Below, piece by piece: positions 1,162 to 21,510 of a stretch of DNA of 64,000 bases (within the stretch, counting starts at the first letter, position 1; every line of letters starts with the position of its first letter). A program made the position numbers and the translations under genes. The notes below the pieces were generated by a model, which made no database searches, had not been told where the DNA came from, and was given only the letters and a program-made list of their open reading frames with translations. The stretch is taken from positions 19,602 to 83,601 of the forward strand of contig JAKQEQ010000037.1 in assembly GCA_029556545.1 (NCBI GenBank), given 5' to 3'. Source of the stretch: Candidatus Hydrogenedentota bacterium. Its GTDB lineage: Bacteria; Hydrogenedentota; Hydrogenedentia; Hydrogenedentales; JAGMZX01.

Positions 1162-2835
1162 ATGAGTAATCGAGCGAAACTAGAGTTGACCTGGATTGGC
1201 AAGGAGAACCGGCCCAAGTTGGAGCCACGCATTCTCTTGGAGGATCCGGAGAAGTCGTATCACGCCAAGAGCCGGGTGTCGGAGAGCGATATCTTCGACA
1301 ATATGCTGATCTTCGGGGACAATCTGCTGGCGTTGAAGGCGTTGGAGCAGGAGTTCACAGGGAAGGTCAAGTGTATCTATATTGATCCGCCTTACAACAC
1401 GGGCTCCGCTTTCACCCACTATGATGACGGCGTTGAGCACTCACTGTGGTTATCTTTGATGAGGGACAGACTTGAGCTCTTGCGGGTTCTCCTGTCCGAA
1501 AACGGAACGATCTGGATTTCCATCGACGACAATGAGTGTCACTATCTCAAAGTGTTGTTGGATGAGATCTTCGGCAGACCGAATTTCGTCGCAACGGTGA
1601 TTTGGCAAAAGATGTTCTCGCCCAAAAGTACCGCACGCCACCTGTCAGACATGCACGATCACGTCTTGCTCTACGCGAAGAATAAGGATAAGTTTGAGCG
1701 CAATCTGCTTCCGAGGAGCGCAGAGCACAACAAGATGTACAAGAATCCAGATGATGATCCAAGGGGGCCATGGACTTCTGGCGACCTTTCTGCGCGCAAT
1801 CCTTACAGCGCAGGCATTTATCCCATTACGGCCCCATCGGGAAGGATAATCTCTGGTCCACCCAAAGGGATGTACTGGCGTGTTTCAAAGGAGAAGTTCC
1901 GGGAGATGGATCGGGACAACCGGATTTGGTGGGGGGCGAAAGGGGACAATCAGCCACGAATCAAGAGGTTCCTATCCGAAGTGATGGAAGGCATTGTTCC
2001 GCAAACGATCTGGTTCCATGAAGAGGTGGGAAACACTCAGGAAGCAAAGAAAGAGGTAATGGCCGCTGTGCCATCTGAGGCGGAGGTGTTTCAGACGCCA
2101 AAACCGGAAAGGCTAATAAAACGCGTTCTTGACATCAGCACAAAACCAGGGGATCTTGTGCTTGATTCCTTTGCCGGGACTGGCACTTTGGGCGCGGTGG
2201 CGCACAAGATGGGCCGCCGCTGGATTATGGTGGAGTTGGGCGAGCATTGCCACACGCACATCATCCCGCGGTTGAAGAAGGTTATCGACGGCGAAGATCC
2301 TGGCGGCATTACGAAGGCGGTGAGTTGGGGTGGTGGGGGTGGGTTCCGCTACTACCGGCTCGCGCCGTCGCTCCTGGAGCGGGACAAGTTCGGGAACTGG
2401 GTGATCAGCAAGAAATTCAACGCGGCGATGCTGGCGGAAGCGGTGTGCAAACTCGAAGGGTTCACCTATGCGCCAAGCGATGCGGTGTATTGGCAGCAGG
2501 GACACTCAACCGAGACGGATTTCATCTACGTGACAACGCAAACGCTGACGCGGGATATGATGCAGCAATTGAGCGACGAGGTCGGCGAGAAGCGGTCGTT
2601 GCTGGTGTATTGTGGCGCGTTCCGGGGAAAGGGCGACGCATTCCCGAATCTGACGGTCAAGAAGATACCCAAGGCCGTGCTCAGGAAATGCGAATGGGGC
2701 CGCGACGACTACAGCCTCGAAATCCGCGATCTGCCCCCACCCACCCCACCACCCCAACCCGAAGGCACACCTCCTGTTTTGAGAGGCAAGGAGCGCCGTA
2801 AGAAAGAACAAGAAGGCCAGGGAGAGTTGTTTTGA
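1162..2835 (+). CDS. Site-specific DNA adenine methyltransferase, type III Mod-like
   Basis: 557 residues. Motif IV DPPYNTG is at residues 75-81 and the SAM-binding FAGTGT motif I is near 337-342. This IV-before-I order defines beta-class amino-methyltransferases, the class of type III Mod subunits; DPPY indicates N6-adenine (or N4-cytosine) methylation. The region between the motifs (about 150-320) would hold the target recognition domain. The C-terminal tail is Pro-rich and basic. It should methylate host DNA and, with the Res-like protein at 3304-5970, form a restriction-modification pair. The ATG follows GAGGA 6 bases after the preceding stop. A GxxExxY gene separates it from res, which is not the usual compact mod-res layout. 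Confidence 0.9.
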   Translation: MSNRAKLELTWIGKENRPKLEPRILLEDPEKSYHAKSRVSESDIFDNMLIFGDNLLALKALEQEFTGKVKCIYIDPPYNTGSAFTHYDDGVEHSLWLSLMRDRLELLRVLLSENGTIWISIDDNECHYLKVLLDEIFGRPNFVATVIWQKMFSPKSTARHLSDMHDHVLLYAKNKDKFERNLLPRSAEHNKMYKNPDDDPRGPWTSGDLSARNPYSAGIYPITAPSGRIISGPPKGMYWRVSKEKFREMDRDNRIWWGAKGDNQPRIKRFLSEVMEGIVPQTIWFHEEVGNTQEAKKEVMAAVPSEAEVFQTPKPERLIKRVLDISTKPGDLVLDSFAGTGTLGAVAHKMGRRWIMVELGEHCHTHIIPRLKKVIDGEDPGGITKAVSWGGGGGFRYYRLAPSLLERDKFGNWVISKKFNAAMLAEAVCKLEGFTYAPSDAVYWQQGHSTETDFIYVTTQTLTRDMMQQLSDEVGEKRSLLVYCGAFRGKGDAFPNLTVKKIPKAVLRKCEWGRDDYSLEIRDLPPPTPPPQPEGTPPVLRGKERRKKEQEGQGELF

Positions 2836-2841
2836 TGGATG

Positions 2842-2868
2842 CACCACGAAGCCGCGAAGGACACGAAG
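2842..2868. repeat. Left arm of an inverted repeat framing the GxxExxY gene
   Basis: The 26 bases at 2843-2868, starting ACCACGAAGCCGCGAAGG, reappear as the reverse complement at 3260-3285 with a single mismatch. The arm lies directly after the methyltransferase stop and just before the ribosome binding site of the next gene, so the pair brackets that gene exactly. Confidence 0.85.
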
Positions 2869-2879
2869 GGAGGCGATGA

Positions 2880-3251
2880 ATGGAGTTCGATTCGTTGTCC
2901 AACCGCGTGATCGGGTGCGCCTTGGAGGTGCATCGCCACTTGGGGCCTGGACTTTTGGAGTCCGCCTATGAGGAATGCCTTGCCTATGAGTTGCAGGTGG
3001 CGGGGCTGGCATTTTCGCGCCAGGTGGATTTGCCGGTGACCTATAAGGGTTTGCGCCTGGATTGCTGTTATCGAATGGATGTGGTTGTCGAGAATACGCT
3101 GCTGCTGGAACTCAAGAGCGTGGAGGCGTTGTTGCCGATCCACGAGGCGCAATTGTTGACCTATATGAAACTGTCCGGGCTGAAAACCGGCCTGCTCATG
3201 AACTTCAACGAACGCTATCTGAAAGATGGACTGAAAAGGATGGTGTTATGA
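2880..3251 (+). CDS. GxxExxY protein (small PD-(D/E)XK-like fold)
   Basis: 123 residues. The family signature is visible as GPGLLESAYEE near residues 22-32, with conserved HxHLGPG before it. A later YRMDVVVE...LLLELKS segment carries the Asp and E-x-K expected of a PD-(D/E)XK fold. The ATG is preceded by AAGGGAGG with 6-base spacing. Members of this family are small, scattered across many bacteria and of unclear role; nuclease activity is not established. Here the gene is inserted between mod and res genes and is framed by inverted repeats, so it may be a small mobile passenger rather than a working part of the restriction system. Confidence 0.85.
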   Translation: MEFDSLSNRVIGCALEVHRHLGPGLLESAYEECLAYELQVAGLAFSRQVDLPVTYKGLRLDCCYRMDVVVENTLLLELKSVEALLPIHEAQLLTYMKLSGLKTGLLMNFNERYLKDGLKRMVL

Positions 3252-3258
3252 ATTTCCT

Positions 3259-3286
3259 TCTTCGTGCCCTTCGCGGCTTCGTGGTG
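3259..3286. repeat. Right arm of the inverted repeat framing the GxxExxY gene
   Basis: CTTCGTGCCCTTCGCGGC and the following bases are the reverse complement of the arm at 2843-2868. The arm begins 8 bases after the GxxExxY stop and ends just upstream of the AAGGAG that serves the helicase gene. Confidence 0.85.
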
Positions 3287-3303
3287 AACCAAAGGAGTGG
3301 CAT

Positions 3304-5970
3304 GTGAACCCCCAAGTAAACGCCATCAGCAACCGCCTGAGCCTGCGTCCGCCGCAGCGCGAGGCGCTGGAGATTTTGGACCGCGTGTGCGAGATCATCT
3401 CGCTGGAGAAGGGGGCGGACCTTGATCAGGCGCTGAGCGTCATCCGGTCCGAATTCCCTACGGTCGCCGATTTCGAGCGGGAGTTTCCCTCGCTGTGCTT
3501 CGCACTGGCGACGGGCGTGGGCAAGACGCGGCTCATGGGGGCCTTCATCAGCTACCTGTTCCGCGTCGAAAACATCCGGCATTTCTTCGTGCTGGCCCCT
3601 AACCTGACCATCTACAGCAAGCTGATCGCGGACTTCACGCCGAACACGCCAAAGTACGTACTCCAAGGCATCTCGGAATTCGCCACCACCCCGCCCGTGA
3701 TTATCACGGGCGACACCTACGAGCAAGGCATCGGCGTGCGCGAGGGCTACCTGTTCGAGGCGGGCGAGGTGCACATCAACATCTTCAACATCTCGAAGAT
3801 CAACTCCGAGGTGCGCGGCGGCAGCGCCCCGCGCATCAAGCGCCTGAGCGAGTACATCGGCGAGAGCTATTTCGAGTACCTGTCCAAGCTGGATGACCTG
3901 GTGCTGATCATGGACGAGTCGCATCGGTATCGCGCGACCGCCGGGGTGCGCGCCATCAACGAACTTCGACCTATTATCGGCCTGGAACTGACGGCCACGC
4001 CCCAGATCGAACGCGGCGGCGGGGCGGACCCGTTCAAGAACGTCATCTACAGCTATCCGCTGTCGTGCGCCCTGGACGACGGCTTCGTCAAGGAGCCCGC
4101 CGTGGCCACGCGCGAGAATTTCATCGCGGACAATTACGACCGCGACGGCCTGGAGCGGCTGAAACTCGAAGACGGCGTCCGGTTCCACGAGAACACCAAG
4201 GTCGAGTTGGAGGTGTTCGCCCGCGAAAACAGCCGCCCCATCGTAAAACCGTTCATGCTGGTGGTGGCGCAGGACACGGAGCACGCCGACGCACTGGTCA
4301 AGGTCATCGAGGATGACGCCTTCTTCGAGGGGCGGTACAGGGGGAAGGTGATCACGGTGCACTCGAACCTGCGCGGCGAGGAGAAAGACGATACCGTGCA
4401 GCAGTTGCTCTCCGTGGAGGATCCGGCCAATCCCATCGAGATCGTGGTGCACGTCAACATGCTCAAAGAGGGCTGGGACGTGACCAACCTGTACACCATC
4501 GTGCCGTTGCGCACCGCGAACTCCCGGACGCTGGTCGAGCAGTCCATCGGGCGCGGCCTCCGCCTGCCCTACGGCAAGCGGACGGGCAATCCCGCCGTGG
4601 ACCGGCTGACCATCGTGTCGCACGACCGGTTCCAGGAAATCATCGACCACGCCAACGACCCCAACTCCATCATCCGCACGGGCATCATCATCGGGCGCGA
4701 TGTCTCGGACGAACGGACGAAGGTGGTGGTGGTGCCGCCGACCATCGAGGCGCGGATAACGGGCGATGACGCCCAGGCGGCGGGCCAGCAGGGCCTGCTG
4801 TTCGACCGGCCCGAAGAGCGCCAAATCGCCCGCACCGTGCTCAACATCATCCGCGACTACGAGCGGCTGCCGCGCTCGGGCGATCTGTTGTCGCCCGAAG
4901 TGCAGAAGGAGTTGGTGGAGAAGACGGCGGCGGTGGTGACGCCGAAGCAGTACGAGATCGAGGGCACGTCCGAAAGGGTGGACCTGGTCAGGGTCGTTCG
5001 CGAGACGGCGGCGCAGTACGTGGCGATGTCGATCGACATCCCGCGGATCGTGGTGGTGCCGACCGGCGAGGTGACCGGCGGTTTCCAGGACTTCGATTTG
5101 GACACCTCCAACGTGCATCTCCAGCCGGTGGCCAACGACCTCATTTCGCAGGGGTTGCATAAAGGCCAGCGCTACCACCTGATCAGCGGCGACGGCATCG
5201 TGCCGGAGGAGCGGCTGGAAGACTACCTTGTTCGCGGCCTGATCGACTTTGACGACATCAACTATGACGATAACGCGGACCTCTTGTACAAGTTGGCCGG
5301 ACAGATGGTCCGGCACCTGCAATCGTATCTGAAAAGCGAAGACGACGTGCTGAACGTGCTGCAGTATCACCAGCAGACGCTGGTTAACCTTATCCATGCG
5401 CAGATGCTCGCTTATTATAAGGAAGAGGCCACCGAGTACACGGCGCAGGTGACCAGGGGGTTCACCACCATCCGCGCGAACGCCTACAACGCGCCCGCCG
5501 ATGAGCCCGTCCGTGACGTGCGCACGCCTGTGCCGGACTTGCAGAACATCCGTCGGATGCTGTTCGGCGGGTTCCGCAGGTGCCTGTATGGCGTGCAGAA
5601 ATTCGATGCGGATTCGGAGCGTCGCTTCGCCGTGATCCTGGATACCGACCGCGACGTGCAGAAGTGGTTCAAGCCGGTGCGCGGCGACTTTCAGATCCAT
5701 TACGGCCATGACGACGCGGCGTACAACCCCGACTTCGTGGTGGAGACGGATAAGGCCAAGTACATTTGCGAACCCAAGGCCGCCAACGAGATGACCGATG
5801 AGACGGTGCTGGCTAAGGCGCGGGCCGCCGCCGTGTGGTGCGAGCATGCTTCCAAGCATGCCCGCGACCATGACGGGAAGCCCTGGTCCTACCTCCTCAT
5901 CCCCGACGACCAAATCCGCGAAAACATGACGCTGCAAGGACTTGCAGCGGCGCACACCTTCCGGGCATGA
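3304..5970 (+). CDS. DEAD/DEAH helicase-nuclease, type III Res-like restriction subunit
   Basis: 888 residues with a GTG start behind AAGGAG (7-base spacing). Superfamily 2 motifs are in order: Walker A ATGVGKT at about 69-75, MDESH at 203-207, TATP at about 230-233, KEGWDV, and motif VI QSIGRGLRLP at about 413-422. Near the C-terminus PDFVVE (Asp 810) followed by CEPK (Glu 823, Lys 825) forms a PD-(D/E)XK nuclease site, as in type III Res subunits. It would translocate on and cleave unmethylated DNA in complex with the Mod-like protein at 1162-2835. All expected motifs look intact. The gene ends at the edge of a G-rich tandem repeat. Confidence 0.9.
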   Translation: MNPQVNAISNRLSLRPPQREALEILDRVCEIISLEKGADLDQALSVIRSEFPTVADFEREFPSLCFALATGVGKTRLMGAFISYLFRVENIRHFFVLAPNLTIYSKLIADFTPNTPKYVLQGISEFATTPPVIITGDTYEQGIGVREGYLFEAGEVHINIFNISKINSEVRGGSAPRIKRLSEYIGESYFEYLSKLDDLVLIMDESHRYRATAGVRAINELRPIIGLELTATPQIERGGGADPFKNVIYSYPLSCALDDGFVKEPAVATRENFIADNYDRDGLERLKLEDGVRFHENTKVELEVFARENSRPIVKPFMLVVAQDTEHADALVKVIEDDAFFEGRYRGKVITVHSNLRGEEKDDTVQQLLSVEDPANPIEIVVHVNMLKEGWDVTNLYTIVPLRTANSRTLVEQSIGRGLRLPYGKRTGNPAVDRLTIVSHDRFQEIIDHANDPNSIIRTGIIIGRDVSDERTKVVVVPPTIEARITGDDAQAAGQQGLLFDRPEERQIARTVLNIIRDYERLPRSGDLLSPEVQKELVEKTAAVVTPKQYEIEGTSERVDLVRVVRETAAQYVAMSIDIPRIVVVPTGEVTGGFQDFDLDTSNVHLQPVANDLISQGLHKGQRYHLISGDGIVPEERLEDYLVRGLIDFDDINYDDNADLLYKLAGQMVRHLQSYLKSEDDVLNVLQYHQQTLVNLIHAQMLAYYKEEATEYTAQVTRGFTTIRANAYNAPADEPVRDVRTPVPDLQNIRRMLFGGFRRCLYGVQKFDADSERRFAVILDTDRDVQKWFKPVRGDFQIHYGHDDAAYNPDFVVETDKAKYICEPKAANEMTDETVLAKARAAAVWCEHASKHARDHDGKPWSYLLIPDDQIRENMTLQGLAAAHTFRA

Positions 5971-13580: not shown

Positions 13581-13760
13581 CCCCGACTGTCCTCCCACGG
13601 TCCACCGGCGTGATGTGGCGCGGAGCGGGGTTCCGGCTTCCGGCGGGAAACGGGCGGGCGGTTCTGCGCTTCGGCGGCGGCGGGCGGGAGTGCAGGCGGG
13701 GCCTGCTTTCCCATGGAAACGCTGGGGTTGGGCGCGGGGGCGGGCCGGGGGCGCGTCCGG
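13581..13760 (+). repeat. Left copy of a ~180-bp direct repeat
   Basis: It aligns along its whole length with 21225-21405 in the same orientation. Both begin CCCCGACTGTCCTCCCACGG, share CGGAGCGGGGTTCCGGCTTC and a GGCGGCGGCGGGCGGGA core, and differ by scattered substitutions and short indels. It separates the rightward replication module from the leftward helicase/ATPase operon. It may be a dispersed genomic repeat or a trace of how the operon was inserted. Confidence 0.85.
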
Positions 13761-13969
13761 AGCCATCGAGCCTTTCCTCGCCCCACAAGGCGAGGCCCCA
13801 TTGAAGCTCTGTCTCTGTCTCTGTGTGCGCTGCGGCAGCCCCCTGCTATGACGTGCTCATCTCGTGGCTTAGTATGTCTCACCGCGATATTTTCCACCGC
13901 GGTGATAGGTGGTATCATCTCTCACGGACAGCCTGTGTAATCGTTGTGCCGCGATTCCGGCGTCAAGGC

Positions 13970-14200
13970 TTGGCTGCCCTCAATGATAATCAAAAGGAAA
14001 TCATCTGCCACCTCTGCCAAACCCTCGCTCGTCCAGAACCATCTTGGGTACCTGCGACAGAGATCTCTGGATTCGCCCGTCTGAAGGCTTACCCAGGTCG
14101 GGTGCAAGCGGAACGACGGGCAATACCACTACGAATATGACCGGATTCGCGCCATGCGGAGATCTATTGACAACTCCGAACAGACCTCTGCAGGCGATGC
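13970..14200 (+). pseudogene. Possible frameshifted remnant of a small winged-helix-like gene
   Basis: One forward frame reads LAALNDNQKEIICHLCQTLA and then WVPATEIS, which looks like the start of a small helix-turn-helix protein. About 30 codons later the +1 frame reads CKRNDGQYHYEYDRIRAMRR, which looks like its C-terminal part. No single frame joins them and no start with a good ribosome binding site is seen. A broken regulator or cargo gene is one reading; chance is the other. Confidence 0.3.
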
Positions 14201-14201
14201 A

Positions 14202-17200
14202 CTACACACCGCGCCTCTCCGACACCATCGCCCGCAGGTCGATGGCATGGCTTTGGACGAAGCGGATGGTTGCAGATTCCTCGCCAAGCGTGACGGGCAA
14301 CTCCAGGGCGTCGCCGATTTGGGCAAAGGCATCCCGGAGTGTGTCTCGCGCATCGTCTGATCCATGGAACACGAACTCATCGTACTTAGCCGCGCAGACC
14401 GGGCAAAGGGCAAGGTAGTTGGCGTCAAGTTCCTTCGGCAAATCGAAGGCTTCGACCTTCTCGAAGTAGTGCTTGCCGTTCTTCTCTCGGAAGGGCATCT
14501 CGTCCTGGCAGATCTGGCAAATCAGCTGATCATCGTCATTCGTGTAGAGATCTCGAAGGTACGCTTCCACTTCGGCTTTGCCTTGCGTGCGGCTGGTTCG
14601 GACGCTTCGCTCCCGCTTCTCGTGCTGCTTATCGGGTGCGCCAGCCGCTTTCTCCTTAGCCTTTCTTTTGCGCCGTTCTGGATCAGCGGAGGTCCGCTCC
14701 GGGAACGCGGGTTGCGCTTGCCGGCTTTCCCGCCACCTCTGAAACCCCTCGGGATCCTCTTTCTTCAGCCTGGCCATTTCCTTAGCTTCTTCCAATGAAT
14801 CGAAGCCGACATCTTTTATCGCAGCATCTATGTCTTGCTGCTCAGAAAGCATCACTCCTAGAGCCCTTGCCAGTTGTTCGTTTCTGTTCCAATCTTCAGG
14901 AAGGTCGTGATAGCGCACATCGTTAGGTCTGCGAAATCCACCGGTGCCGTCCGGAATCCACTCCGTGTGATGCAGCAACTGGCCTGCCTTAGAAAACTGC
15001 TCTTCGCGTTTCTGTGGAATGAAATCCTTTGTCACGTACTTGCCATATGTATTGCATTCTTCAACTGTCCCTTTGATGAAACGCAAACGGTTTAAGAGAA
15101 GCTCATTCCAGATGTATGCGCTCTTCTCCATTGAGGCCGGGAGCTCACTCAAAGCAGTTTTCAGATGCTCGATGTCAAAATCTGGATGGAACCCATCAAG
15201 GCATCGAAGTTTGTGAGAATAGGATCGTTCAATGCGAACGAGTTGACCTGCCTTTCCGTCTCCATGGTAAGTCTTCGGGGATGATTGCACACTCATCTGG
15301 CCCAACGCAGACCCAAGAACTTCAATGACATCTTCGTGTACGAGCCACACTTTTTCATTCCCGTGCAGATAAGCCAGGAGCCCGTCGTCTTCTGGAAGCC
15401 AGACATCGCCGGGTTTCTTTAGAGCCAATTGCATGTTGCCAGCATTCTCAGCCTTTATGAATGGCGTCTTACGGCACTCCGTAAGTAAGCGCTCAGTCTT
15501 CTCCTTAGAGTCACTTAACAGTGCGCTGACTATACGTTTGAGCTCTGCGGAAGTAGGAAAATCTACGGTTTCAAGATCGGGAGCAGTCTGATACTTTGAG
15601 AGGATGGTCCTGATTACGCGTTCAATCCTATCAAGCTCTTGTACTCCTACTTCGCTCAGAAACGTCTTGGCTTTCTCCTTCTGACTGTCATCGCTTCCAC
15701 TAGAATAGACGCCGCTCGCGACTCGGGGAAACTCGTCTTCGTGCTCAACCCCGTCGGTCGGGAAGAAGCATTCGCTTCCCTTGCGATAAGTCTCATCACT
15801 GCATCGAACAAGAGCAAGATTCTTAATAGTCGTTGTTCTTTCCGTCTTTGCATAGCTAGGAGGCGCATTCAGGTACTCATTCAACATGGAATATAGCGCT
15901 TGATGCCATCTTTCATCCTTGCTACCCATCCATTGCCCCAGGGCATCCTTGTTCAGCCTGCCCAATGCTTTCACGACTGCGGCTGTGTCCCATTGCTCAA
16001 TACCGAGCATCGACGAAAAGTTGTCCTCACGCTGATTGCGCTGGGGGGGATTGGAAGCCCATATCGGAGCAACATAGTTGTCACCCAAGAGCGTGAGCAT
16101 ATCGTCATCATCAATAAGGTCCGAGAGTGCCTTCGTGCCCCGAAAGATGCCGTCGGCCGCGGCGTGGCTGCCGCGCTTCATGGGGACAAGATCCTCTTCC
16201 TTGAATTCCGTAACTAGCCGTCCCATTAGCGGCACGTAGAACTCCGACAGATTGTCCCTGTCGTTGGGAAGTACCGCCAAGGCTCGTACGGTCAGCAAGC
16301 CTTGATCGCGGATCGCGGACATCGATTCGGCCAGCAGCTCGGCCAGGTGATCGCGCAACACATTGTTTCCCGCACAATCGCGGACACTGTCGCGCGCGAC
16401 CGTTGAGGCGAACGGCGCATGGAGATGGAAACGCAGATTGGAGGTTTCTTTGTCCGCCGGGAAATAGATGCATACGCGTCCCGGCTCCATCGCCGCGAGT
16501 TCCCACTCGGGGGTGGCAACCGCGTCGTCGCCTTTCTTTTCCTTGGCACCCGCCTTCGCTGCAACTGGCGACAATCCGAAGGCCACGGCGATGCGGCAGA
16601 GCTTTGTTTTCTCGTCTTCCTTTTCAGACTCTTCGTCTTCAACCTCCACTTCCTTATCGAACTTCAAGAACCAGGTCGATGAAGGGGCAAGTTCGTTCGG
16701 TTGTTGGACGCGAATCTCGTAGCGGTTGTAACCAATGTCGATTCGTTCAATGTAACCGAGCGATGAATCAGGGAGAAGATACTCTATCTTGCGGATGTGC
16801 GTAAGGAAGAGCAAGGTTGTCGCGCCGAGCGCCTTTAACAGTCTTTCGATCTCGCCCTTTGCCTGCTCCGGTCCCTTTTTGTGGTTATCAAACGGCAAGA
16901 TGAATCGCGTTTGCTTGTCCCCCAATTGGCTTCTTGAACGCCCGTTCGGTTCTGGAACCACCATATCACGAATTCTGAAATGAAACTCACCAGATTCGAC
17001 TTCCGGTGTTTCAGTGTAGGCAAACACGGCTTTGAATCCAACGCCGAATTGACCGATACTGGTTGCGTCATCGCGTTTGGTGCTGAACCCGATGCTGGTA
17101 ATGGCATCCACGTTATCGATAGAAAAAAGTCGCTCGCCGTCGTGCTCGAATTCGATGCGATCCTCATGCAGGATAAACCGCACCTCTTGAGCTCGTGCGT

Positions 17201-17369
17201 CCTCGGCATTCTGAAGCAATTCATAAATGAAATGGGCATTGTCCGGATAGAGGTCCGTGAGCAGGCGCTTGAGACCTGCTTCAAATCCGTTCTCTCGGTT
17301 TGCGTCAACCCATTTTCGGCGTTTCAAGGCGATGGACTCGATCGTTTCAGGCATGGCTTCACTATCCAT
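14202..17369 (-). CDS. Sacsin-like GHKL ATPase with C-terminal Cys4 (HNH-like) domain
   Basis: 1055 residues. Residues 43-60 (NAHFIYELLQNAEDARA) hold the N-box of a sacsin-type GHKL ATPase, with Glu50, Asn54 and Asp57. The G-box GQFGVGFKAVF follows at 106-116. A charged acidic linker comes near 225-245, and a basic Lys/Arg-rich segment near 895-925. The end carries Cys951-x2-Cys954 and Cys989-x2-Cys992 in an HNH-like layout, but the usual catalytic His positions are not evident. The ATG overlaps the end of the helicase gene by 8 bases, so the two are translated as a unit. The likely role is a conformational ATPase partner of the helicase in anti-invader defence. G+C is much lower than in the chromosomal part. 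Confidence 0.85.
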   Translation of the reverse strand: MDSEAMPETIESIALKRRKWVDANRENGFEAGLKRLLTDLYPDNAHFIYELLQNAEDARAQEVRFILHEDRIEFEHDGERLFSIDNVDAITSIGFSTKRDDATSIGQFGVGFKAVFAYTETPEVESGEFHFRIRDMVVPEPNGRSRSQLGDKQTRFILPFDNHKKGPEQAKGEIERLLKALGATTLLFLTHIRKIEYLLPDSSLGYIERIDIGYNRYEIRVQQPNELAPSSTWFLKFDKEVEVEDEESEKEDEKTKLCRIAVAFGLSPVAAKAGAKEKKGDDAVATPEWELAAMEPGRVCIYFPADKETSNLRFHLHAPFASTVARDSVRDCAGNNVLRDHLAELLAESMSAIRDQGLLTVRALAVLPNDRDNLSEFYVPLMGRLVTEFKEEDLVPMKRGSHAAADGIFRGTKALSDLIDDDDMLTLLGDNYVAPIWASNPPQRNQREDNFSSMLGIEQWDTAAVVKALGRLNKDALGQWMGSKDERWHQALYSMLNEYLNAPPSYAKTERTTTIKNLALVRCSDETYRKGSECFFPTDGVEHEDEFPRVASGVYSSGSDDSQKEKAKTFLSEVGVQELDRIERVIRTILSKYQTAPDLETVDFPTSAELKRIVSALLSDSKEKTERLLTECRKTPFIKAENAGNMQLALKKPGDVWLPEDDGLLAYLHGNEKVWLVHEDVIEVLGSALGQMSVQSSPKTYHGDGKAGQLVRIERSYSHKLRCLDGFHPDFDIEHLKTALSELPASMEKSAYIWNELLLNRLRFIKGTVEECNTYGKYVTKDFIPQKREEQFSKAGQLLHHTEWIPDGTGGFRRPNDVRYHDLPEDWNRNEQLARALGVMLSEQQDIDAAIKDVGFDSLEEAKEMARLKKEDPEGFQRWRESRQAQPAFPERTSADPERRKRKAKEKAAGAPDKQHEKRERSVRTSRTQGKAEVEAYLRDLYTNDDDQLICQICQDEMPFREKNGKHYFEKVEAFDLPKELDANYLALCPVCAAKYDEFVFHGSDDARDTLRDAFAQIGDALELPVTLGEESATIRFVQSHAIDLRAMVSERRGV

Positions 17370-20300
17370 TGGCGGTTCTCTCTACCCGCAGCATCCCCCA
17401 TCCAACGGGGCGGGTGGTGATGTCGGCTTTCTGTGTGGCTTCCTCAATTTCGCTGATGTGGCGGTCGAAGTCGGCTTGAGCGTTTTCCTTCTGACGTGAT
17501 TTCATGGTGCGGATCTTGTCGTTTCGGGCCTCGGCCAGTTGGGAGTCAAGGACCGCCATGCGGGCCTTGTGGCTGGTATCAAGACTGGAGCGGCGAAACT
17601 CGGCAACGCGCTGAGTGTTCTCGATATGTCCCGCGCGGGCATCGGACCAGGCTTCGTAGTGGCGGCTTTCGAGCGCGTTGCGCGTTTCCTCGGTAATCCT
17701 GTCGGAAGCAACCTCGAACCCCTCGGCGTCGGCCAGCAACCGCAGGAACTCGCCGGTGAGGGCCGGATTAGTCGTGACGGGCCGGAACTCGACATCGTCG
17801 CGGATGCCGTGGTACTGCCACTGATAGACGGCGAAGGGATAGTCGCCCGGTGAGACGGCGTCGGTAGAGACACGAATGCCAACGACGGGCACGCCGTCAC
17901 CGGCTCCTCCGACGGTACGGGCAGCTTGTACGGCCAACGGGTGAATGGGCGTGATGAGACAGATGGTCCGATCCTCGACTGCGCAGGCCGAATCGAAGGT
18001 GACGGCCAAGTTTGGCTCATTGCCCTTAAGCCATGTTTCCCACTCCCGGGCGATGGGAGAAGTACGGTTCTCGATCGCCGCAAAATCCTTTAGCAGCGCC
18101 TCGCGGACCTCGCGGGCCAGACGCAGGCGTTTCTTCGGGCCATCTCCGCTAAGGGGGGATTCCTCCTTTCCGGCGCGGCCGCGCAAGTATTCCACGACCA
18201 GGCGTTCGAGCGAGGTGGCGGAGAGCCAGTAGCTGGAAGCGTCCTCGATATCCTGCTTGAACTGATCGGCGGGCATGCGCAGGCCGAACAATTCAGTCTG
18301 GCGCGTTTCAAGATCCTGTTGTTCCTTGACAAGCCGAATGCTGTTGTCAGCGAGTTGTTCCAGTTTGGCCTGACGTTCCGCCGGCGACAGGGAGAGGTTT
18401 TCGGCAACGCTTGTGATCTCGCGGGTGACTTCGCCCAGGATCGCCTCGTTGGCCCCAAGCGCGCGTTCGAAGACGCCGATGCGCAGCAGACAGCGTTCGT
18501 AGATTTCGGCGTCGATGGTGTCCGGGGTGATGAGGTTGTAGATCGCCACGGCCTCGCTGGTCTGCCCCCAGCGGTCAATACGACCGATGCGCTGGTCGAT
18601 GCGCATAGGGTTCCAGGGCAGGTCATAATTCACCATGCAGTCGCAGAACTGATAATCAAGCCCCTCGCAACCGACCTCGGAGAAGAGGAGCACATCGAGG
18701 GCTTCGGCATCGTCACGGTTCGTTTCGAATCGCGCGCGAAGCGCGACGCGTTCGTCGTCGCCTACGCCGCCATGGATCAGACCAACGCGGAAACCTTCAT
18801 CCTGAAGCGCCTTGTAGAGGTAGGCGAGCGTGTGGCGGAAACTGCTGAACAGCATGACTTTGTTATTCGGGAGCGCCTGTTTGTCTTCGAGAATGCCTTT
18901 CAGGGCAAGGAACTTGGGGTCGGCGTCGGGATCGCATGGCAGGGTTTCAGCCTGACGCAGGGCATCGTCGATGAGTTGCCGAACCGTCGGCGCCGCGCGG
19001 TCGATGTCGAGGTCAATCCCGTCGTCCTCGCCCTCCTCCACACTCAGGCAGTCGAGTTCGTCAAATCGGCGCGAGAGGATGTCCTGGAGGAACGGTGCCA
19101 GCGCCTGGATACAGCTCGCCGCCTGTCGGCGAATGGTCGTGAGGAGAAACCGGACCGATTGAACGCCATGCAGTTCGGCATAGACGGCGGCCTGGGCGGC
19201 GATGACGGCATCGTGCAGACTCTTCTGCTCGGGGGTGAACTCGACTGTCACCGTCTGGGGTTTGCGTTGGGTGAATTCGCCAATGTCGCGGCGCAGAGTA
19301 CGGTTCATCAGGCCGGACAGCGTGTGCAACTGCTCAATGCTTCGAATCGCATGAACGCGCACAGCCCGGTCGTCCCCGGCATGGGCGAGGGAATCAAAGA
19401 CCTCCTGAAAGCGTGGGTCATTCCGCAGCACTGACCGGCCCCAGGGCGTTCCGGCGGCCTCCGTCAAGGCTTCACGCGCTTCTTCGGCCCAGCCAGGGCC
19501 ACCCTTGCGTGCGCAGAGAGCGGCCTGGTTGATGTGTGCGTTCGGTTCTGTGATGGCCCCATAACTGGCCTTGTCGATGATGATGTCGGGACGCAAGGTG
19601 TTCAGAAGCACGAAAAGATCGTTATCGCTCATCTGAATCGGTGTCGCGGTGAGAAAAACGACGGCTTCGGCGTTTTCGCAGAAGAATCGAATGGCCTCGT
19701 GGCGCTGCGTATTCGTGTTGCGGATGTGGTGCGCCTCGTCAACGACCACAAGGTCGAACTGCGGCGGCGGGTCGAGTTGGAGCAGGCCCTTCCGGCGCTT
19801 GCCGCTCCCATGCAGGACTTCGTCGGTCAGGAGCGAGAAGGGGAGGATGGCCTTCTCGTAGCGCTGCGGCCATTCGCCGTCGAGGTCCATTTCGGAGATG
19901 CAATGGCGTAATTTGGGGCCGTCGAGATGTTCGAAACGCTCATCGAATCGCTTCATTTCCCGTCGCCATTTCTCCTCCGTAACAAGTGGGCGGGGACAGG
20001 CGATGAGCACGCGCCGGATATCGCGGCGGGCCTGGAGTTCGCGAAGAATCAGCCCGGCCTCGATCGTCTTTCCAACGCCGACACTATCGGCGATCAGTAA
20101 GCGCGGCCGGTCGGAGCGGATGAACTTCAGTACGGGACGGAACTGATAGGGGATCAGTTCGATGCGCGCGGCGTGGAGCGAGTAAAGATTTGATATGCCC
20201 GGGTGTAGCAGTTGCAGGGCCGTCAGGTGGGCATGGAATTCACGCAGAGACGCAACAGTCATCGACTCGTCTTTGAAGTCGCCCGGCATGAGTTGGCTTT

Positions 20301-20958
20301 CGTAATAAGAGGCCTTCCCGCCGTCGAGGAAGACGTGGTAGCGGGTTTCCTTTTCGCCTGGCATCGCGGCGATAACCGCGCCGGATTTTGAGGGATTGGC
20401 GCGCAGCCGAACGACGTCGCCGGGGGCGTATGTCGTCTGCCGCTCTGGTTGCGAAGCGGCCTGCTGCTGGAGCGCAGTTTCAGGGTATGGAGATGGTGGC
20501 TTGCTCAAAACGGTTTCCTTTGCTTCCCGAATCTCCGATAGAAGCGGGTCGTCGGGGGCAAGGAGAATCAGGAAACGCTGAAGCGTATCCAGATCACGAT
20601 AGATGTCTTCGCCCGATGGAGCCGCCACCTGCGCGTGCGCCCAGCGGTTGCGGACCGTCTGCATCTCCTTGACGAAATTGCGACTCTCGTAGGGCCAGTT
20701 CCGTGATTGCACGAGCTCGAACCAGTTTTGATCCAGAACGCGTAGCAGCGCGGCAAGGTCGAGTTGTTCCAGATGGTCGATGCCTTGACGTTCCACGGCC
20801 TCCTGTTGCCGAAACGAGAGTTTGCCATAGACCCGCTGGCCCCACCAATCCGAGCCGAGAATGGGCAACATCTCTTCCAGAGCATGGCAGAGTGAATGGG
20901 CTGCTTTCTGCAGCAGACCTTGCATGCTTACTAGGTGGGGGTTGACGTCTGTATCCAT
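17362..20958 (-). CDS. SNF2-family helicase with N-terminal Swt1-like HEPN domain
   Basis: 1198 residues from the ATG at 20958; a longer frame to 21099 would start with an unconserved basic stretch and overrun the likely promoter. Residues 8-125 resemble a Swt1-type HEPN domain and keep the R-x-x-x-x-H signature in VRNRWAHAQ (about 102-110), the usual metal-independent RNase site. Residues 177-226 (YAPGDVVRLRANPSKSG...) look like a small beta-barrel. The SNF2 motor has GVGKT at 294-298, DEAH at 407-410, TATP at 437-440 and QRIGRIDRWGQ at 789-799. A long C-terminal region ends in charged helices. Being first in the operon and sharing overlapping frames with the sacsin-like ATPase, it probably senses or remodels foreign nucleic acid. 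Confidence 0.88.
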   Translation of the reverse strand: MDTDVNPHLVSMQGLLQKAAHSLCHALEEMLPILGSDWWGQRVYGKLSFRQQEAVERQGIDHLEQLDLAALLRVLDQNWFELVQSRNWPYESRNFVKEMQTVRNRWAHAQVAAPSGEDIYRDLDTLQRFLILLAPDDPLLSEIREAKETVLSKPPSPYPETALQQQAASQPERQTTYAPGDVVRLRANPSKSGAVIAAMPGEKETRYHVFLDGGKASYYESQLMPGDFKDESMTVASLREFHAHLTALQLLHPGISNLYSLHAARIELIPYQFRPVLKFIRSDRPRLLIADSVGVGKTIEAGLILRELQARRDIRRVLIACPRPLVTEEKWRREMKRFDERFEHLDGPKLRHCISEMDLDGEWPQRYEKAILPFSLLTDEVLHGSGKRRKGLLQLDPPPQFDLVVVDEAHHIRNTNTQRHEAIRFFCENAEAVVFLTATPIQMSDNDLFVLLNTLRPDIIIDKASYGAITEPNAHINQAALCARKGGPGWAEEAREALTEAAGTPWGRSVLRNDPRFQEVFDSLAHAGDDRAVRVHAIRSIEQLHTLSGLMNRTLRRDIGEFTQRKPQTVTVEFTPEQKSLHDAVIAAQAAVYAELHGVQSVRFLLTTIRRQAASCIQALAPFLQDILSRRFDELDCLSVEEGEDDGIDLDIDRAAPTVRQLIDDALRQAETLPCDPDADPKFLALKGILEDKQALPNNKVMLFSSFRHTLAYLYKALQDEGFRVGLIHGGVGDDERVALRARFETNRDDAEALDVLLFSEVGCEGLDYQFCDCMVNYDLPWNPMRIDQRIGRIDRWGQTSEAVAIYNLITPDTIDAEIYERCLLRIGVFERALGANEAILGEVTREITSVAENLSLSPAERQAKLEQLADNSIRLVKEQQDLETRQTELFGLRMPADQFKQDIEDASSYWLSATSLERLVVEYLRGRAGKEESPLSGDGPKKRLRLAREVREALLKDFAAIENRTSPIAREWETWLKGNEPNLAVTFDSACAVEDRTICLITPIHPLAVQAARTVGGAGDGVPVVGIRVSTDAVSPGDYPFAVYQWQYHGIRDDVEFRPVTTNPALTGEFLRLLADAEGFEVASDRITEETRNALESRHYEAWSDARAGHIENTQRVAEFRRSSLDTSHKARMAVLDSQLAEARNDKIRTMKSRQKENAQADFDRHISEIEEATQKADITTRPVGWGMLRVERTANG

Positions 20959-21102
20959 CCTGGCTTTCGTCCTCTCATGTGGTCTCCATGATCCATTGCG
21001 GTGCTGGGCGAGGTCTCGGTTCGATTGCAGCCCTCTGGCGACGGCGAGTTCGCGTGCGCGTATTCGACTCGTGAGTACATGTTCTGTGGCCGCGTGCACT
21101 AT

Positions 21103-21224: not shown

Positions 21225-21405
21225 CCCCGACTGTCCTCCCACGGTCCACCGGCGTGATGAGGCGCGGAGCGGGGTTCCGGCTTCCGGAGCGAAAGGGCCG
21301 CACGGTTCTGCCGTTCGGCGGCGGCGGGCGGGATCGCAGGCGGGGCCTGAATTCCTCATGGAATCGCTGGGCTTGGCGCGGGGGGCGGGCCAGGGGCGCA
21401 CCCGG
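21225..21405 (+). repeat. Right copy of the ~180-bp direct repeat
   Basis: It is the partner of 13581-13760, in the same orientation. It ends 16 bases from the 3' end of the tRNA-Ser gene. A smaller hairpin (GGGT/ACCC with flanking TCGTT/AACGA, about 21177-21201) sits just outside it, in the same relative place as the nested hairpin beside the left copy. Confidence 0.85.
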
Positions 21406-21420
21406 AAAAGTGCAGGAAAA

Positions 21421-21510
21421 TGGCGGAGAGGCAGGGATTCGAACCCTGGTTACGGTAAACCGTAAAACGGCTTTCGAGGCCGCCGCCTTCAACCACTCGG
21501 CCACCTCTCC
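21421..21510 (-). tRNA. tRNA-Ser (anticodon CGA)
   Basis: Read on the minus strand, the gene starts GGAGAGGTGGCCGAGTGG and ends in a GGTTCGAATCC T arm, CCTCTCC acceptor strand, G discriminator and encoded CCA. The anticodon loop CTCGAAA gives CGA, which reads the serine codon UCG. The long variable arm (ACGGTTTACCGT-type stem) is the class II feature expected of serine tRNA. Its 3' end faces the accessory region, the usual geometry for an integrative element inserted at a tRNA 3' end. Confidence 0.95.

Follow-up and report, generated by a model that had tools for sequence, protein, structure and literature searches.

What do a HEPN-bearing SNF2 helicase and a sacsin-type ATPase do in a single gene pair, and is that pair a defence system? 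The question is raised by two genes in a 64,000-nucleotide stretch of a Candidatus Hydrogenedentota genome (the window; contig C137:19602-83601 of a 6.1-Mb genome), which an initial annotation had described as touching open reading frames (ORFs) and proposed as an undescribed defence system. Both genes are where it placed them, on the minus strand, with an 8-nucleotide overlap (Table 1). We found that the pair is a real, widespread, patchy and partly mobile module, seen in unrelated bacteria as well as in some archaea and often within mobile defence islands, and judging from its sequence we regard some anti-invader function, most likely anti-phage, as distinctly probable. Its candidacy as an undescribed system stands: PADLOC-DB names no system for it, and co-occurrence, defence neighbours and patchy distribution all agree.

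The pair and its relatives

Relatives were taken as 80 loci from one profile search of genome contigs with the helicase alignment, neighbours being ignored in the choice, and 75 of them hold enough sequence downstream to be testable for linkage. Homologues of the two proteins do co-occur as neighbours, the ATPase gene lying directly downstream on the same strand in 73 of these 75 helicase-selected loci; 40 of the 73 junctions overlap or abut, 67 lie within 50 nucleotides, and 23 have a 4-nucleotide overlap. The two exceptions are L107, with reversed gene order, and L087, which has no ATPase. Carriers include Pseudomonadota, Thermodesulfobacteriota, Planctomycetota, Latescibacterota, Poribacteria, Bacillota, Spirochaetota, Cloacimonadota and Methanobacteriota, among others, and the pair occurs on rhizobial plasmids, on IMG/VR contigs and on a Methanomethylovorans plasmid, where the motor is more distant (27% identity). 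The genus to which the window belongs is represented by a single further genome, which lacks the pair, and a distant blastn search with a Vibrio homologue as query gave no match in E. coli.

Within the families of the Pseudomonas and Roseovarius carriers, ATPase matches at E 1e-60 were found in 3 of 348 and 3 of 345 genomes (six of 693 in total), three of the six (both centre genomes and G687) being this module. The other three matches (~485-524 bits; 1126-1132 residues as called) were rejected as a different sacsin subfamily, with a UvrD-like helicase adjoining and no match to the Cys4 end. A second sacsin-ATPase subfamily of about 1130 residues, without a match to the Cys4 end, is represented in L178, L179 and L181, its gene divergent from that of a UvrD-like helicase and accompanied in L178 and L179 by two further genes; these loci are possibly another defence cassette.

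Both proteins were annotated with Pfam, NCBIfam and PADLOC-DB, modelled with AlphaFold2 and compared with the PDB by Foldseek and VIA-align; both models are long, and the structure-search lists are dominated by the motor core and by the GHKL domain, respectively. The folds so matched are those of a RapA-type motor and a GHKL ATPase. For the motor, we prefer the ATG at 20958 to an alternative in-frame GTG at 21099 (1245 residues), because homologues start at about residue 8-12 of the 1198-residue form. The Swt1-like HEPN domain with its R-N-x-x-A-H motif, first recognized in the initial annotation, is borne out by a PF18731 match of 52.4 bits (cut-off 27.5) and by the presence of RNRWAH, and SNF2-rel_dom and Helicase_C score 61 and 66 bits. 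The model (mean predicted local distance difference test score, pLDDT, 83) has HEPN helices from H7-34 to H139-152 and is best matched in the PDB by RapA (6bog, Foldseek E 1.4e-32); RapA chain 8t0l_F aligns over residues 195-1194 (Z 20.5, root-mean-square deviation (rmsd) 7.9, 780 aligned), and residues 251-834 find PDB matches at Z about 20-22. An SNF2 core with RapA-like flanking parts, as modelled, places the protein among the RapA-type motors, and the SNF2 catalytic residues are conserved across relatives. The Pfam scan found no DNA nuclease domain in either protein.

The downstream protein is likewise a sacsin-type GHKL ATPase with a C-terminal Cys4 domain, as had been claimed: SACS PF25794 scores 64 bits (cut-off 32.8), the NCBIfam sacsin N-terminal domain NF047352 scores 90.6 bits (cut-off 50), and all four cysteines were found. 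E50, N54, D57, G106, G109 and G111 are invariant among 46 aligned sequences. Hsp90/TRAP1 are the top Foldseek matches of its model (mean pLDDT 83), in which residues 22-360 match the GyrB, Hsp90, MutL and MORC folds at Z 14-16 (GyrB, Z 16.2, rmsd 5.0; Hsp90, Z about 15); the match to sacsin SR1 has Z 14.4 and rmsd 3.0 over 171 residues. Identity to relatives drops in the central part, and in several pairs similarity persists on either side of it; a protein that is conserved at its GHKL end, variable in between and better conserved again at its Cys4 end would suit a switch whose reader can change. A treble-clef or HNH-like nature of the Cys4 domain is a lead only, suggested by motif spacing and by a weak HNH_2 match in L017 (E 0.012).

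ATPase divergence beside the motor

The two proteins have diverged to very different extents. Motors from 68 loci have a median pairwise identity of 47%, their ATPases one of 25%, and of the 77 locus pairs whose motors share more than 70% identity, 76 have ATPases that are less alike than the motors. At the extreme, motor and ATPase identities are 91 and 23% (L036/L129), 85 and 25% (L066/L077), 96 and 35% (L103/L108) and 80 and 29% (window/L023). DNA similarity in the aligned extreme pairs ends within tens of bases of the motor-ATPase junction; between L103 and L108, for example, similarity of 94% breaks off at 13635 and returns, at 93%, from 16620 onwards, the L108 ATPase gene occupying 13630-16611.

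Partial ATPase genes accompany these contrasts. In L022 (4.5-11.3 kb) and L023 (3.4-10.2 kb), one HEPN-SNF2 motor is followed by a first ATPase, a C-terminal stub and a second full ATPase, the L023 stub being 73% similar over 300 nucleotides to the end of the window ATPase gene (14233-14524), and C-terminal stubs of other ATPases also lie downstream in L051, L084 and L129. Genome G067 carries, beside type III restriction-modification (R-M) genes, a 245-codon frame with the Cys4 domain (L024:8458-9120, minus) but without the GHKL part, 65% identical to residues 884-1049 of the window ATPase. Such breakpoints and stubs are what would be left by repeated gene replacement. We discarded the difference in guanine-plus-cytosine (GC) content as evidence of exchange, because ATPase GC is below that of the helicase in 70 of 70 loci (mean -4.3 points).

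The HEPN domain is not a constant part of the motor: of 76 testable loci, 54 have it. Among 53 aligned full-length motors, R103 and H108 are each retained by 52 and N104 by all 53, the single exception being L074, in which both R and H are lost. On the helicase tree (FastTree; long branches flagged, rooting uncertain) a minimum of 15 changes of HEPN state is required, at least nine of them forced by well-supported branches, with some of the rows lacking HEPN representing motors truncated by contig ends. Repeated loss is the simpler reading, because the deepest branch of the tree has HEPN, subject to the uncertain rooting. A separate HEPN ORF occurs only in L087, where one in-frame stop divides HEPN from motor; since the ATPase is missing there too, this is probably a decaying locus. 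A gene of about 177 codons upstream of HEPN-less helicases was considered as a detached HEPN and ruled out, having no HEPN match and no blastp similarity. Its product, a conserved protein of about 176-184 residues encoded upstream of the motor in L014, L015, L016, L089, L091 and L093, was found only with HEPN-less alphaproteobacterial motors and is sigma-factor-like by eye, with no Pfam match.

Because the motor is constant and its partner exchangeable, recognition may well be set by the latter, and we lean slightly towards the ATPase being the recognition subunit; where it is present, the HEPN RNase is rather likely to be the main effector. The variable central region of the ATPase would read an invader cue and its GHKL domain would close as an ATP-driven dimer clamp, licensing the RapA-type SNF2 protein, a constant engine translocating on double-stranded DNA, and switching on the HEPN RNase carried by the motor, with a stop in translation or death of the infected cell as the outcome. 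GHKL proteins close as ATP-bound dimers. HEPN RNases, for their part, act as dimers (PMC13092281), so that closure of the ATPase could join two HEPN domains on the motor. In HEPN-less lineages the motor itself or neighbouring genes would have to act. Taken whole, this scheme of ATPase recognition switch, licensed motor and HEPN RNase is one that we doubt slightly more than we credit. More tentative is its evolutionary extension to a distinct kind of defence system, in which an exchangeable Hsp90/sacsin-type ATPase might serve as an HsdS-like recognition subunit driving a constant HEPN-armed motor, specificity changing by replacement of the whole gene from the motor stop codon to the downstream flank.

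Several points weigh against recognition by an exchanged ATPase with HEPN as the effector. The extreme pairs are few and clean DNA breakpoints occur in only some of them, and, in place of selection for specificity, rapid evolution of the ATPase genes or their displacement by phage inhibitors may be at work. The usual G1-motif Asp position is a nearly invariant His (H76; motif read by eye), so ATP turnover is not certain. HEPN is missing from 22 of the 76 testable loci and is therefore not the sole effector, and our survey of 58 large codirectional neighbours is description and not enrichment, because it has no matched control set. If the proposal is true, an Hsp90-family switch would be added to the known sensors of bacterial immunity, and the relatives would form a natural exchange series of a near-constant motor with many ATPases, making the recognition target of the ATPase approachable by swaps.

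Genomic setting and neighbouring genes

The pair had been placed beside other defence genes and a tRNA, and this is confirmed, both a type III Mod-Res locus and tRNA-Ser being present (Table 1). A stretch of about 41 kb, from contig C137:177 to window position 21479, looks like an integrated element with tRNA-Ser at its right end, because the 3' part of the tRNA is duplicated. The type III genes of this element score 752 bits (MTase_III) and 755 bits (REase_III) in PADLOC; it also has a primase/PolA block (PolA by Pfam), and AbiE-like, serine recombinase-like, tyrosine integrase-like and TOTE-like genes were read in it by eye. A direct repeat brackets the pair, its copies identical at 162 of 183 positions (89%); the genome search showed no further copy, and the repeat may mark a nested insertion. 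The foreign composition ascribed to both genes holds clearly for the ATPase gene, whose 53.1% GC compares with 65.1% over 24-64 kb; the helicase gene, at 60.6%, is less atypical. The claim that the pair has its own promoter did not stand: there is one 9/12 sigma-70-like match at 21132-21103, and the five sites in the region, as against 2.5 +/- 1.4 in shuffled sequence, are not significant.

Table 1. Positions of the pair, its domains and surrounding features in the window.
Feature	Position	Strand	Basis or remark
Type III restriction-modification genes, same element (Mod 1162-2835, Res 3304-5970)	1162..5970	+	PADLOC-DB
Direct repeat flanking the pair, left copy	13581..13761	+	Repeat comparison
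Sacsin-type GHKL ATPase gene, 1055 residues	14202..17369	-	ORF, Pfam, NCBIfam
C-terminal Cys4 domain, ~residues 893-1050 (C951-Q-I-C954, C989-P-V-C992)	14220..14693	-	Motif; orphan ORF and stubs elsewhere
Poorly conserved central part, ~residues 400-890, proposed recognition region	14700..16172	-	Drop in identity; putative function
GHKL ATPase and transducer, ~residues 22-360 (N-box ELLQNAED, G2 box IGQFGVGFK)	16290..17306	-	Fold matches
HEPN-SNF2 (RapA-type) motor gene, 1198 residues	17362..20958	-	ORF, Pfam, AlphaFold2, Foldseek
RapA-like C-terminal part of motor, residues 835-1198	17365..18456	-	RapA 8t0l_F alignment
SNF2/SF2 motor core, residues 251-834 (Walker A GVGKT 294-298, DEAH 407-410)	18457..20208	-	PF00176, PF00271
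Swt1-like HEPN domain, ~residues 12-133	20560..20925	-	PF18731 match; all-helical in model
RNRWAH, residues 103-108, putative HEPN catalytic R-x4-H (R103, H108)	20635..20652	-	Conserved in relatives
Direct repeat flanking the pair, right copy	21225..21406	+	Repeat comparison
tRNA-Ser(CGA), integration site	21421..21510	-	3' part duplicated at contig C137:177-234

Among the 58 large codirectional neighbours in relatives, several belong to type III or type I R-M systems, LmuB, PDC-S68, McrBC or TIR. In L112 the order is type III Mod, ResIII helicase, motor, ATPase and PDC-S68; in L102 it is PglX, PglZ, motor, ATPase and then a 1236-residue gene product clustering with PDC-S68; L113 has PglX-PglZ before the pair by layout only; and in L081 a codirectional 550-residue gene product and a type III Res are encoded upstream. 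A third gene recurs after the ATPase in L050, L102, L109, L112, L113 and L129, encoding a RecD-like helicase of 1211-1290 residues if complete, which in L050 and L112 matches the PADLOC candidate PDC-S68 at more than 1500 bits.

One could envision the pair as a backup module that a neighbouring R-M or BREX system keeps quiet, so that a phage disabling this neighbour frees the HEPN RNase in the manner of PrrC. HEPN domains tied to R-M operons are predicted to act as released RNases, and such logic has been proposed for them (PMC3710099); the type III R-M genes of the window element agree with it, as do the pairs that continue a run of type III Mod-Res genes (L112, L081) or follow PglX-PglZ (L102, and L113 by layout). 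However, the R-M genes of the window are on the opposite strand and more than 8 kb off, with the primase/PolA block between; many pairs have no large same-strand gene directly upstream, the systems found with the pair belong to several unrelated types, and HEPN is missing from 22 loci. We find this explanation unlikely.

Comparison with known systems

The nearest PADLOC-DB models are DrmD (PDLC02623) for the motor, at 389 bits, and TmtA for the ATPase, at up to 203 bits; these, like the NCBIfam matches, are partial or below cut-off. BREX-related, DISARM class I and ARMADA systems all include RapA-type helicases (PMC12839542, PMC12458937), and the pair could on this ground be a DISARM- or BREX-like machine without some of its genes, in which the SNF2 protein acts directly on unmodified DNA, by degradation or blockage, the ATPase acts as loader and HEPN is secondary. 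We consider this improbable. The RapA-type SNF2 motor is shared with DISARM DrmD, but ours reaches only half the NCBIfam equivalog cut-off (306 vs 610 bits), and in the tree both DrmD rows fall outside the 90-row clade (support 100) to which the motors belong. A blastp search at 1e-5 of 4531 ORFs, drawn from about 97 loci with 26 kb of the window among them, gave no match to Nocardia DrmA, a DUF1998 fragment or MmeI, though distant homologues could escape it, and a DNA nuclease domain is wanting in both proteins by Pfam. In addition to what DrmD, BrxHII, HmaA, DpdE and ArmA share as RapA-like helicases, our motor has an N-terminal HEPN domain and a sacsin ATPase partner. Far less probable than not is a non-defence stress or chaperone pair coupling RapA-like recycling of RNA polymerase to an Hsp90-like chaperone. 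In its favour are the RapA and Hsp90/TRAP1 structure matches and the small sigma-factor-like protein upstream in six HEPN-less alphaproteobacterial loci; against it are the rare and patchy distribution of the pair, its occurrence on an integrated element as well as on plasmids and viral contigs, its R-M and BREX neighbours and its conserved HEPN catalytic residues.

Returning to an anti-invader pair in which the ATPase may recognize and HEPN may act, its ATPase resembles TmtA, which we take to be the gene of Tiamat, a single-gene system. Our ATPase matches the TmtA profile over its first ~590 residues; the match spans positions 5-575 of 1302 in the profile, short of full length, and leaves the remainder, including the Cys4 domain, unmatched. 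Unlike a single-gene system, our ATPase gene nearly always adjoins an SNF2 gene.

A literature search found no description of the motor-sacsin pair; most subscription papers were outside that search, so a name may exist. The HEPN-SNF2 fusion as such has been known since 2013, when WQE_15321, of the Swt1-like family, was tabulated as an active HEPN with a SWI2/SNF2 ATPase (PMC3710099). By this domain description it is possibly a member of our motor family; the passages of that paper concerning it mention neither a partner ATPase of the sacsin type nor a module, its distribution or any exchange of ATPases. The DUF499-centred BREX-related type 1 systems (Hma) resemble our pair in combining a Swt1-type HEPN, an ATPase and an SNF2 helicase in one operon (PMC12839542, PMC3710099). 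In Hma, however, it is an AAA+/STAND ATPase that carries HEPN, and an N6-methylase belongs to the system, whereas in our pair the motor carries HEPN, the ATPase is of the GHKL type and there is no dedicated methylase; Pfam found no DUF499 match in motor or ATPase.

Finally, the initial annotation saw in the pair the modules of eukaryotic sacsin divided between partners. The sacsin-type GHKL domain is indeed shared, the SR1 structures matching our ATPase as modelled, but the described domains of sacsin include no SNF2 motor such as the partner here. The division itself was not borne out: the HEPN of eukaryotic sacsin belongs to HEPN-T/PF05168 (PMC3710099) and ours is Swt1-like/PF18731, so that the likeness is convergence of parts at best. 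If the pair works as proposed, it would also be relevant to the question why sacsin-type ATPases and HEPN domains repeatedly meet in unrelated lineages.

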